Source: Oscillospiraceae bacterium
GTDB taxonomy: Bacteria > Bacillota > Clostridia > Oscillospirales > WRJC01
Length of the DNA stretch: 54,492 nucleotides
Assembly (NCBI GenBank): GCA_009777355.1
Contig: WRMA01000003.1
Coordinates: 1 to 54,492, forward strand
Direction: 5' to 3'
Of this stretch, positions 851-51,807 are shown in pieces; the first letter of the stretch is position 1, and each line of letters opens with the position of its first letter. The notes beneath the pieces are model-generated. The model was not told where the DNA came from, made no database searches, and was given only the letters and a program-made list of their open reading frames with translations. Position numbers and translations under genes: made by a program.

Positions 851-987
851 TAGACTTCTTACGAAATTAAAATCCTGATTGTAGGGGCGCGCATTGCGCG
901 TCCGCAAAACCAACGCAGTTTTGACGTTTTTCAGACGGACGGCCAATGGCCGCCCCTACATGGTAACGTGATTTCGCAAGAGGTCTA
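851..987. mobile_element. BIME/MITE-like element, copy A (outer TAGAC...GTCTA TIR; inner GTAGGGG hairpins 881..959)
   Basis: TAGACTTCTTACGAAAT / revcomp TAGACCTCTTGCGAAAT outer repeats; GTAGGGGCGCGCATTGCGCGTCC and GGACGGCCAATGGCCGCCCCTAC inside. Confidence 0.85.
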
Positions 988-1673: not shown

Positions 1674-2939
1674 TTAATACAACGGATACTTATCGCAAAG
1701 TTTATTGACTTCGTCTCTTATATAATCCGCCTTGTTTTCAAAATCCGCCGCCGCAAGCTTAAATAACTTCGCGATTACCGGCATATCCTCTTCACAAAAT
1801 CCCCGCGAGGTCGCAGCCGGAACTCCCACTCTTATCCCGCTTGTAACAAACGGCGACAGAGGTTCGTTGGGTATCGTGTTTTTATTGACTGTTATATAAA
1901 CCTCGTCAAGACGTTTTTCAAAGTCCTTGCCCGTAGTATTATATCTTCTCAGGTCAACAAGCATAAGATGATTGTCTGTTCCTCCGGAAACCAAATCAAA
2001 ACCCTCGCTTATTAAACTTTCGGACAGAACTTTCGCGTTTCTTATTATTTTATTCTGATAAATCTTAAACCCCGGTTCGAGCGCTTCTCCGAAGCAAACG
2101 GCTTTTGCAGCGATTATATGCATCAGCGGGCCGCCCTGTATCCCGGGGAATACGGCTTTGTTTATCTTCTTTGCAATTTCCTCATCGTTTGATAATATCA
2201 TGCCTCCGCGAGGCCCTCTCAAAGTCTTATGCGTGGTAGTCGTGACAACGTCGGCATACAAAACGGGGTTTTGATGTAATCCGGCGGCGACAAGACCGGC
2301 GATATGCGCCATATCGACCATTAAGTACGCGCCGCATTTTTCGGCAATCTCCCCGAATCTCTCAAAATCAATAAGCCGCGGGTACGCAGTCGCTCCCGCG
2401 AGTATCATCTTCGGTTTGTGTTTCATTGCGAGAGCTTCAACTTTATCGTAATTTATCAAATGGGTATCGTCCTCAACCCCGTAGGGAATAAAATTATAAT
2501 ACGCGCCCGAAATATTAACGGGGCTTCCGTGCGTCAGGTGTCCTCCGTTTGCGAGGCTCATGCCCAAAACGGTATCTCCGGGCTGCAGGAGTCCGAAATA
2601 GACCGCCGTATTCGCCTGGGCGCCGCTGTGCGGCTGAACGTTCGCGAATTTCGACCCGAAGAGCTTGTTCGCCCTCTCTATCGTTAAGCTTTCCACTTCG
2701 TCCACACATTCGCACCCGCCGTAGTATCTTTTCCCGGGATAGCCTTCGGCATATTTATTGGTGAGAACTGTTGCGGCGGCGGCAAGCACCGCCGGAGAAA
2801 CAAAGTTCTCTGAAGCGATAAGCTCTATATTTCTTTTCTGACGTTTAATTTCCTTTTCGACGAGAGCCGCGAGCTTTGAGTCGCGCGATTTCAGAAAATC
2901 AAGATTATTTTCAACAAAATTCATATTTATTTTCTCCAT
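1674..2939 (-). CDS. glyA: Serine hydroxymethyltransferase
   Basis: [46 protein letters not shown]-Lys motif. Confidence 0.97.
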
Positions 2940-12544: not shown

Positions 12545-12681
12545 TAGACCCCTTGCGAAATTAAAATCCTGATTGTAGGGGCGCGCATTGCGCGTCCGCA
12601 AAATTAACGCAGTTTTGATGTTTTTCGGACGGACGGCCAATGGCCGCCCCTACATGGTAACGCAGTTTCGCAAGAAGTCTA
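12545..12681. mobile_element. BIME/MITE-like element, copy B
   Basis: Near-identical to copy A: TAGACCCCTTGCGAAATTAAAATCCTGATTGTAGGGGCGCGCATTGCGCG...CCCCTACATGGTAACGCAGTTTCGCAAGAAGTCTA. Confidence 0.88.
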
Positions 12682-16785: not shown

Positions 16786-16897
16786 TAGACTTCTTTCAAA
16801 TAAATTAAACGCTACCATGTAGGGGCGGCCATTGGCCGTCCGTCTGAAAAACGTCAAAACTGCGCTAATTTTGCGGACGCGCAATGCGCGCCCCTAC
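16786..16897. mobile_element. BIME/MITE-like element, copy C (inverted relative to A/B; distal outer TIR missing)
   Basis: TAGACTTCTTTCAAA outer end; GTAGGGGCGGCCATTGGCCGTCC ... GGACGCGCAATGCGCGCCCCTAC. Confidence 0.82.
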
Positions 16898-17934
16898 AAA
16901 AAAACCTCTCTTCCTGTTTCCGCCGATTCGTAAACCGCCCTGACTATCCTCACGCTTTTAATCGCCTCCGCCGGAGTCACAAGAGGCTCCCGGTTCTCTA
17001 TGACTGCCGAAATCATATCCTCGACCTGAACGGAATGTCCGACCGCGAGAGACGGGTCGAGAGCCGCGGCGGCGCCGTTTCCTCCGCCGTAGGTTTCCAG
17101 CATATCGTTTTCCTCGAAAGAATCGCCGCCCGCAATCTTCCAGAGCTTCAGCGAATCGCCGTCTATTTCAACCGAGCCTTTCTCCCCGTACAACTGAATA
17201 TCAGTACATATCCCGGGATAACAGCAGGTCGACGACGTAAACGACGCGACGGCCCCGCTTTCGAACTTAACAATCGAAACAGTCAAATCCTCCGTTTCTA
17301 TTTTATGATTATAGACCCCCGAAACGGAAACGACGCTTTTTACGTCTCCCATAAGCCATTGCATCAAATCGACCGTGTGTACCGCCTGATTCATAAGAGA
17401 ACCCCCGCCGTCCATCTCCCACGTGCCTCTCCAGCCGCCGCTGTCGTAATAATTCTGGTCCCTGAACCATTTTACGGCGAAATTACCCAGTATAATTTTG
17501 CCGAACCTGCCTTCCTCGACGGCTTCTTTTACGGGTTTCATGACCGCGTTGAATCTATTCTGGTGAATAACCCCCGCCTTTAAACCCGTTCTTTTTGCCG
17601 CTTCTTCTATTTCCATAGCTTTTTCAACGGTAATCTCTACCGGCTTTTCTACCAGAATATGCTTGCCTTTTTCAAGAGCCCTCACAGAAAATTCTGAATG
17701 GAGACCGCTCGGAACGCACACGGATACAATATCGATATCCGTATTTTCAAGCATTTCGTCAAAAGACTTATAAGTCAGAACCCCTTCGTAGGCCTGTTTC
17801 GCAGATTCAAGTTTTTCTTCGAGCAAATCGCAGACTGCGATTAACTCCGCATTTTTCGAGTTGTATACGGCGTCGCAGTGGGCGCGTCCGATTCCCAGAC
17901 CGACGACGGCGTATCCGATTTTTTTTTCAGGCAT
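16894..17934 (-). CDS. Gfo/Idh/MocA family oxidoreductase
   Basis: VVGLGIGRAHCDAV Rossmann, KGKHILVEKPVE, GGGSLMNQAVHTVDLMQWL. Confidence 0.92.
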   Translation of the reverse strand: MPEKKIGYAVVGLGIGRAHCDAVYNSKNAELIAVCDLLEEKLESAKQAYEGVLTYKSFDEMLENTDIDIVSVCVPSGLHSEFSVRALEKGKHILVEKPVEITVEKAMEIEEAAKRTGLKAGVIHQNRFNAVMKPVKEAVEEGRFGKIILGNFAVKWFRDQNYYDSGGWRGTWEMDGGGSLMNQAVHTVDLMQWLMGDVKSVVSVSGVYNHKIETEDLTVSIVKFESGAVASFTSSTCCYPGICTDIQLYGEKGSVEIDGDSLKLWKIAGGDSFEENDMLETYGGGNGAAAALDPSLAVGHSVQVEDMISAVIENREPLVTPAEAIKSVRIVRAVYESAETGREVFL

Positions 17935-17997: not shown

Positions 17998-18073
17998 GTA
18001 GGGAACGCATTTATGCGTTCCGTGAAAACAAAAAATTATATGTATTTGCGGAACGCATAAATGCGTTCCCTAC
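17998..18073. repeat. BIME-like inverted GTAGGG-hairpin pair, copy E
   Basis: GTAGGGAACGCATTTATGCGTTCC ... GGAACGCATAAATGCGTTCCCTAC. Confidence 0.85.
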
Positions 18074-25107: not shown

Positions 25108-25195
25108 GTAGGGAACGGATTTATCCGTTCCGCAACGCAGATAAATATAATTTATAATTTCTTGTTTTCACGGAACGCATAAATGCGTTCCCTAC
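25108..25195. repeat. BIME-like inverted GTAGGG-hairpin pair, copy F (inverted relative to E), between fusA and tuf
   Basis: GTAGGGAACGGATTTATCCGTTCC ... GGAACGCATAAATGCGTTCCCTAC. Confidence 0.87.
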
Positions 25196-41614: not shown

Positions 41615-41845
41615 GGTTTTTGAACGAGTAAACAAATTATGAACAAATGTGAAAATTATCGCAGAAAGCCCTCTTTTTTAAAGAGGGTGGCAGTCGCGTA
41701 AGCGGCTGACGGGTGTTTTTTAAAATTTGATTTTGCGTACGGGGAGACGAAAACACCCGCCGTCTGCGGACGGCACCCTCTTTAAAAAAGAGGGCAAAGA
41801 ATAAATCCATTATTTGTTCACAAAAATTTAACTCATTCAAAAACC
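41615..41845. mobile_element. 231-bp palindromic MITE-like element, copy 1
   Basis: GGTTTTTGAAYGAGT ends; internal CCCTCTTT..AAAGAGGG hairpins; ~97% identical (by eye) to the reverse complement of 44051..44280. Confidence 0.9.
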
Positions 41846-44050: not shown

Positions 44051-44280
44051 GGTTTTTGAACGAGTTAAATTTTTGTGAACAAATAATGGATTTATTCTTT
44101 GCCCTCTTTCGTAAAGAGGGTGCCGTCCGCAGACGGCGGGTGTTTTCGTCTCCCCGTACGCAACATCAAATTTCAAAAACACCCGTCAGCCGCTTACGCG
44201 ACTGCCACCCTCTTTAAAAAAGAGGGCTTTCCGCGATGATTTTCACATTTGTTCATAATTTGTTTACTCGTTCAAAAACC
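44051..44280. mobile_element. 230-bp palindromic MITE-like element, copy 2 (inverted relative to copy 1)
   Basis: Same TIRs and core as 41615..41845. Confidence 0.9.
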
Positions 44281-51699: not shown

Positions 51700-51807
51700 G
51701 TAGGGCGCGGCTTCCATGCCGCGCCGTTGGCGAAAAACCCCCGAGCCGCTGATAAAAACTAACGCGAAATGGGGAAATTGCGGTCGGGCATGGAAGCCCG
51801 ACCCTAC
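51700..51807. repeat. BIME-like inverted GTAGGG-hairpin pair, copy G
   Basis: GTAGGGCGCGGCTTCCATGCCGCGCC ... GTCGGGCATGGAAGCCCGACCCTAC. Confidence 0.82.

Follow-up and report, generated by a model that had tools for sequence, protein, structure and literature searches.

GTAG-class REPINs of an Oscillospiraceae genome and RAYT genes that hold a matching hairpin pair within their coding sequence

Among the closest described systems, the repetitive extragenic palindromes (REPs) of Pseudomonas and Stenotrophomonas are dispersed between genes as inverted pairs, the REP doublets forming hairpins (REPINs), with one class per REP-associated tyrosine transposase (RAYT) and compensatory changes in their stems (PMC2817692, PMC3116915), and for the RAYT genes themselves a pair of inverted REPs as flanks has been described as the invariable arrangement (Nunvar 2010, PMC2817692). 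The bacterial interspersed mosaic elements (BIMEs) of Escherichia coli and their transposase TnpA_REP (4er8) have the GTAG foot and the Y1/HUH fold, and the chemistry of TnpA_REP proceeds from recognition of a single-stranded DNA hairpin and GTAG to attack by a tyrosine (PMC8266576, PMC6006769). In TnpA_REP subclass 2.4 (Quentin et al. 2018, PMC6006769), which is RAYT group 4 of Bertels, in-frame REPs within the transposase gene are already known and were described as generally lying between HUH and Y and having little effect. In this article, I compare with these systems six GTAGGG hairpin pairs in a stretch of 54,492 nucleotides (the window) on contig WRMA01000003.1 of an Oscillospiraceae bacterium (GCA_009777355.1), in particular the BIME/REPIN (HH pair) that a hairpin finder places at 25108..25195 between fusA and tuf, together with a RAYT gene elsewhere in the same genome that carries an inverted pair of REPs inside its own coding sequence.

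The source genome (2.01 Mb in 143 contigs, 91% complete) has a single Y1_Tnp match, a 158-aa open reading frame (ORF) at L001:1432-1908, on a contig other than that of the window. Its motifs are MPNHIH, WQ and YINENP (NHIH, WQ and YINENP fit the Y1/HUH catalytic motifs NH[IFV]H, WQ and YIxNNP-like and agree with the published subclass 2.4 motif table, PMC6006769), its best family is NCBIfam REP_Tyr_transpos (E=7.8e-15), and the predicted fold of its close relative L043 (pLDDT 84.7) finds as best PDB match 4er8, a REP transposase bound to a REP hairpin, at about 24% identity; judged by its sequence, the gene is a TnpA_REP/RAYT of the group 4 / subclass 2.4 type. Two class I REPs, GTAGGGGCGCGCATTGCGCGTCC, stand within its coding sequence, inverted, in frame and letter-identical to the commonest dispersed REP of the genome, one on each side of the HUH motif MPNHIH: the first at L001:1561 (+), read as VGARIARP, and the second at ~1714-1736 (-), read as GRAMRAPT. 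Because no REP lies within 330 bp of the gene and two lie inside it instead, it is a variant and not a canonical REPtron in the sense of Nunvar 2010. A sequence-only reading of the window had proposed a REP/BIME system and a HUH/Y1 ORF flanked by the same hairpins; the system is borne out by dispersed inverted pairs and by this same-genome Y1/HUH gene with an identical REP, and the ORF does exist, except that its hairpins are inside and not flanking.

All six elements listed in that reading are present, each a GTAGGG hairpin followed by an inverted hairpin ending in CCCTAC. With a GT[AG]G foot as its condition, the hairpin finder gives 14 sites over the 54.5 kb versus 0-6 in Markov shuffles, and 12 of the 14 are GTAGGG arms that form exactly six feet-outward pairs, every arm being paired and having GTAG 5' of an imperfect palindrome (12/12); the remaining two are the GTGG ends of an unrelated inverted repeat. 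The focal element is made of the arms 25108-25131 (+), GTAGGGAACGGATTTATCCGTTCC, and 25172-25195 (-), GTAGGGAACGCATTTATGCGTTCC, with the stem GGAACGGA/TCCGTTCC in one half and GGAACGCA/TGCGTTCC in the other, the paired G/C swap that had been claimed for it. The orthologous fusA-tuf spacer in both genus-mates lacks the 25108-25195 block, whose left edge falls at or near GTAG within an A+T-rich stretch and whose right side has ~27 extra nt.

Across the genome, GTAGGG is found 252+235 times versus 119+116 for the reversed pattern, and in a 429-kb sample, from which the dispersed REPs were counted with the reversed sequence as control, 78 GTAGG hairpins stand against 3, with 29 of 34 close neighbours paired as (+,-). 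Class I GTAGGGGCGCGCATTGCGCGTCC has 19 exact copies in the sample and class II GTAGGGGCGGCCATTGGCCGTCC 16, the two being joined as a 79-bp heterotypic REPIN, followed by GTAGGGCGCGGCTTCCATGCCGCGCC (7), GTAGGGAACGCATTTATGCGTTCC (6), GTAGGGGCGATTATTAATCGCCC (5) and GTAGGGAACGGATTTATCCGTTCC (4); the AACG class is mostly a GCA/GGA hetero-pair, the focal element included. For most stem classes of the genome there is a RAYT gene with the identical REP, or nearly so, inside it: class I in the genome's own gene, class II in L050/L054, GATT in L049, ACGAACTGT in L045 and GACGGCGTCC in L135, and the several coexisting stem classes suggested from the window alone match the REPs of distinct RAYT genes in relatives. 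The focal AACGGATTT arm occurs within the RAYT genes L207, L108 and L122, where the internal pair is located after HUH and faces inward, and of the two focal arms one is identical to a REP inside L207 and the other is 1 nt off. Since L207 holds GGAACGGA at one REP site and GGAACGCA at the other, the GGA/GCA swap of the focal element is, on this match, a feature of the L207 RAYT lineage. Of 36 REPs at most 400 bp from a RAYT gene, 21 share the class of the REPs inside that gene (4% match the class of a different gene), and of 178 farther out in the 10-kb flanks 18 do so (1.7% for a different gene).

The layout of the L001 gene is widespread. In both genus-mates every RAYT hit that reaches the REP sites has it, with different stems; among 84 RAYT genes (80 named plus four from the genus) 57 contain both internal REPs, 16 one and 11 none, and among 140 distinct full-length genes, a broader set mostly from Clostridia, the corresponding numbers are 88, 24 and 28. 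A GTAGGG REP lies inside only 5 of 694 other ORFs of at least 200 codons at the same loci versus 112 of the 140 RAYT genes. In alignment, one REP-coded peptide comes after the first strand and before the first helix, the other after the HUH strand and before the helix that succeeds it, and both are loops in the structure model of L043. The 57 genes with both REPs hold 49 distinct upstream REPs, and the two REPs of one gene nonetheless agree with each other: beyond GTAGGG, same-gene identity is 94% versus 50% between genes (10,000 permutations gave at most 0.595), the similarities of REP1 and of REP2 across gene pairs correlate at 0.91 after protein-core identity is removed, and protein-core identity predicts REP similarity only weakly (rho 0.19). 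In one RAYT gene, L091:10001-10501, the internal pair is reversed, (-) before HUH and (+) after, and the RAYT genes L258-L261 of G486 have very long in-frame repeat expansions after HUH, between the two REPs (e.g., dozens of GAPCQN repeats), with open frames of 389 aa at the longest. One deposited contig labelled 'Bacteriophage sp.' (L212; MT839559.1, 130-591) carries a RAYT with a matched internal REP pair; phages or plasmids as the main vehicle of these genes were considered and rejected, the count being four plasmid records, one phage record and three viral contigs. RAYT relatives on plasmid records of Chloroflexota and Bacteroidota have no internal REPs, and one from Chloroflexota is REP-flanked.

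The constraint that keeps these palindromes acts on the DNA and not on the peptide. Across 26 distinct 23-nt REP pairs, 98.3% of stem cells pair, two-sided changes are seen at 12 of 16 stem positions and covariation is 0.625 versus 0.136 in shuffles, and in 109 of 130 internal REPs the palindrome goes beyond what the peptide needs, as judged by synonymous recoding. A protein-level cause was rejected, given that the peptides vary while the palindrome persists, and in some RAYT genes the REP is even read in a different frame. In the minus-oriented internal REPs, G.T wobbles on the GTAG strand correspond to A.C mismatches on the mRNA, and 84 distinct REP2s contain 20 G.T versus 6 A.C, a count in which detection is biased toward G.T; this pattern speaks for the DNA, rather than the mRNA, being under the constraint.

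Internal and flanking pairs also tend to exclude one another. REPs within 330 bp on both sides accompany 3 of 82 genes with an internal pair versus 14 of 24 without (Fisher p=9e-9), and the genes without internal REPs include a clade with a clean pair, (+) upstream and (-) downstream. The exclusion is strong in these counts and unproven as an evolutionary rule. Like subclass 2.4, the present RAYTs have the NHIH, WQ and YIxxNP motifs, GTAG REPs with a stem starting with three G-C pairs, in-frame REPs inside the transposase gene and double-foot REPs; they differ in that a matched inverted pair brackets HUH, that this pair largely replaces the flanking REPs, and that free copies of the bracketed segment exist, with the sampling differing as well, the present set being mostly Clostridia and Quentin's mostly Cyanobacteria and Bacteroidetes (PMC6006769). 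Unlike in Pseudomonas and Stenotrophomonas, the pair of the source-genome RAYT is inside the gene; the E. coli stems differ from those of the window and no internal REPs are reported there; and the palindromic elements of Rickettsia and the other intragenic REPs that Di Nocera 2013 (PMC3733652) cites are likewise in-frame palindromes in proteins but sit in unrelated genes, whereas the present REPs occupy two fixed sites of the cognate transposase. No text was found in the literature on a matched inverted pair around HUH, on the substitution of flanks or on free segment copies, although figure S10 of Quentin might still show a paired layout; new, then, are the matched pair around HUH, the way it has nearly taken the place of flanking REPs, and the free copies, whereas in-frame REPs in subclass 2.4 were known.

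The free copies come from the lineage G140, where contig 19 has a free 203-bp copy of REP1-helix-strand-HUH-REP2 and contig 25 a second one, 98% identical, downstream of a RAYT gene; in both, homology starts at GTAG and stops at CTAC, and the flanks are unrelated. A candidate in G675 (L304) was not counted as a further free copy since its right-hand homology extends past CTAC, and L272 and L273 proved to be unrelated leftovers. Five RAYT genes are broken at one REP (L239, L268, L270, L306 and L311), and L192 (G130 contig 44, ~402-704) is a RAYT frame without HUH, in which the N-part is joined through one double-foot palindrome to a C-part that is in frame and keeps the tyrosine motif. In these cases the internal REPs are seen to act as breakpoints. 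Double-foot palindromes of 26-27 bp, GTAGGGGCGATTATTAATCGCCCCTAC, also occur at L155:14430, L161:5195 and L164:18600, as known for subclass 2.4.

From these comparisons, the six elements of the window are probably non-autonomous GTAG-class REPINs/BIMEs that RAYTs would spread in trans, with the genome's one RAYT gene forming its own 'REPtron' by means of the internal pair, which is translated in frame into two surface loops on either side of the HUH motif. A RAYT/TnpA_REP of the Y1/HUH type (group 4 / subclass 2.4) would move the window REPINs as single-stranded DNA, acting on the GTAG strand of REPs exposed in single-stranded form and mobilising feet-outward pairs, and each stem class would be the substrate of a separate RAYT lineage. 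The internal pair would replace the usual flanking pair and so link the DNA substrate to the enzyme gene, most likely serving as the gene-linked substrate that is elsewhere found in the flanks, and it may itself be mobilisable, REP1-HUH-REP2 leaving as a REPIN and seeding dispersed copies. Cleavage at GTAG, single-stranded transposition, the direction in which transfer runs and what the internal pair does are inferred here. A bolder proposal, that the RAYT gene of Clostridia is built around a REPIN, that the HUH cassette is mobilisable and that REPINs are born inside the transposase gene, is put forward only tentatively; if it is true, a RAYT gene could by itself start a population of REPs in a genome new to it, and the recognition site of a RAYT gene would also be part of its own coding sequence.

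Several observations weigh against this account. The L001 protein scores below the curated cut-off of NCBIfam REP_Tyr_transpos (55 vs 80 bits) and only at the cut-off of Pfam Y1_Tnp PF01797 (E=1e-4), and I know of no in vitro test of cleavage by a group-4 RAYT. A cognate RAYT carrying an identical REP is found within the source genome for class I only, the other stem classes having their RAYT counterparts in relatives alone, in a genome that is 91% complete. The RAYT tree (~146 columns) is poorly resolved, with ~15 changes of the 'none' state and three supported independent pairs, and with only three such pairs the phylogenetic test of internal/flanking exclusion has no power, so that the exclusion is not independent of phylogeny. 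Finally, the free segments derive from a single lineage, G140 (G675 has a messier relative), and recombination between identical REPs could account for them.

Of the other five elements of the window, three lie wholly or by half in a larger repeat. The 79-bp heterotypic REPIN at 881..959 has arm I at 881-903 (+), GTAGGGGCGCGCATTGCGCGTCC, identical to the REPs within the genome's own RAYT gene, and arm II at 937-959 (-), GTAGGGGCGGCCATTGGCCGTCC; that at 12575..12653, in a divergent spacer, has arm I at 12575-12597 (+) and arm II at 12631-12653 (-). Each is the core of a larger unit resembling a miniature inverted-repeat transposable element (MITE), at 853..985 and 12547..12679 respectively, with terminal inverted repeats (TIRs) GACYTCTTGCGAAAT and a TA dinucleotide on each side, and homology continues beyond GTAG to these MITE ends. 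The third heterotypic REPIN, at 16819..16897, is in the opposite orientation (arm II 16819-16841 (+), arm I 16875-16897 (-)) and has a MITE remnant next to arm II and none next to arm I; the CTAC foot of this REPIN (16892-16897) gives the TAG stop of a minus-strand ORF, 16894-17934. The elements 881 and 12575 and half of 16819 are MITE cargo, and GTAG is therefore not their outer boundary; all six elements stand as REP pairs, two of them as the core only of a larger repeat. The terminal inverted repeats of the MITE-like units, their TA at both edges and many short copies fit TA-flanked MITEs, presumably related to IS630/Tc1-like elements on a TA target site, from which they differ in having a whole REPIN as cargo. 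Of the remaining two elements, 17998..18073 has two identical arms GTAGGGAACGCATTTATGCGTTCC (17998-18021 (+), 18050-18073 (-)), and the BIME at 51700..51807, upstream of a tRNA synthetase gene, has arms GTAGGGCGCGGCTTCCATGCCGCGCC at 51700-51725 (+) and GTAGGGTCGGGCTTCCATGCCCGACC at 51782-51807 (-), its spacer holding a BIME of another class in one genus-mate and none in the other. A second and unrelated family of dispersed repeats is present as a near-identical inverted repeat of >100 bp, containing GTGGCAGTCGCGTAAGCGGCTG, at ~41640-41760 and ~44140-44260, bracketing rpsB-tsf.

These MITE units raise the question of whether a DDE-type MITE with TA target sites, and not a RAYT, was the chief carrier of the copies. 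The TIR motif GACYTCTTGCGAAATT occurs 38+38 times in the genome (control 1+2), and of 14 sampled class I/II REPINs, 7, among them those at 881 and 12575, lie between both TIRs; but the AACG, CGCGGC and GATT classes have no such ends, which for them contradicts this route outright, several class I/II copies lack them too, and the class I REPs inside the L001 RAYT gene have none either, which makes the MITE very unlikely as the chief route. Of the class I/II 79-bp copies, roughly half are whole inside the TA-flanked unit and probably also gained copies in this way, the MITE-borne ones probably spreading at least partly as cargo of another transposon. It is just as improbable that the hairpin pairs are RNA elements (terminators, attenuators or mRNA stabilisers), with the internal pair regulating RAYT translation. 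G+C-rich hairpins do adjoin genes, REPs elsewhere affect mRNA, and one element of the window ends an ORF through its TAG foot; however, no Rfam family matched the window, the 12575 element sits in a divergent spacer, presence and class vary at orthologous spacers, and the wobbles of the minus-oriented internal REPs would be A.C mismatches in the mRNA.

The two remaining alternatives concern the RAYT gene itself and deserve more weight. Internal REPs might be passive, having landed in two permissive loops and been overwritten occasionally by gene conversion with no function, which is how Quentin 2018 (PMC6006769) viewed those of subclass 2.4; both REP-coded segments are in predicted loops and gene conversion would likewise yield matching arms, but passive insertions would be expected to decay, and here both sites are filled across dozens of stem classes, internal REPs are concentrated in RAYT genes (112/140, 88 with both, against 5/694 other ORFs), and genes without an internal pair tend to have flanking pairs, so I consider passive insertion rather unlikely. 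It is quite possible, on the other hand, that the free REP1-HUH-REP2 copies and the collapsed and broken genes arose by homologous recombination or slippage between identical REPs and not by RAYT catalysis, the double-foot palindrome of L192 being the expected slippage product and the breaks in the five genes named above being one-sided at REPs. Yet the two G140 copies have identical GTAG/CTAC edges within unrelated flanks, and recombination would presuppose that both sites already held a REPIN of that class.

Spread of the window elements in trans by RAYTs that carry their own REP pair bears on how REP/REPIN populations start, and on how each of them stays matched to one transposase. With the matching transposase carrying the same hairpin pair inside its coding sequence, the question of where the repeats originate becomes testable, and dozens of natural enzyme/stem pairs are now supplied for decoding hairpin specificity. 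A DNA-level constraint is able to persist within a coding sequence despite peptide variation, and in a RAYT gene with its own in-frame REP pair, enzyme and substrate are combined in one molecule and have to change in step. That the catalytic segment also exists as free copies running from GTAG to CTAC suggests a path by which a transposase gene may give rise to a REPIN directly.
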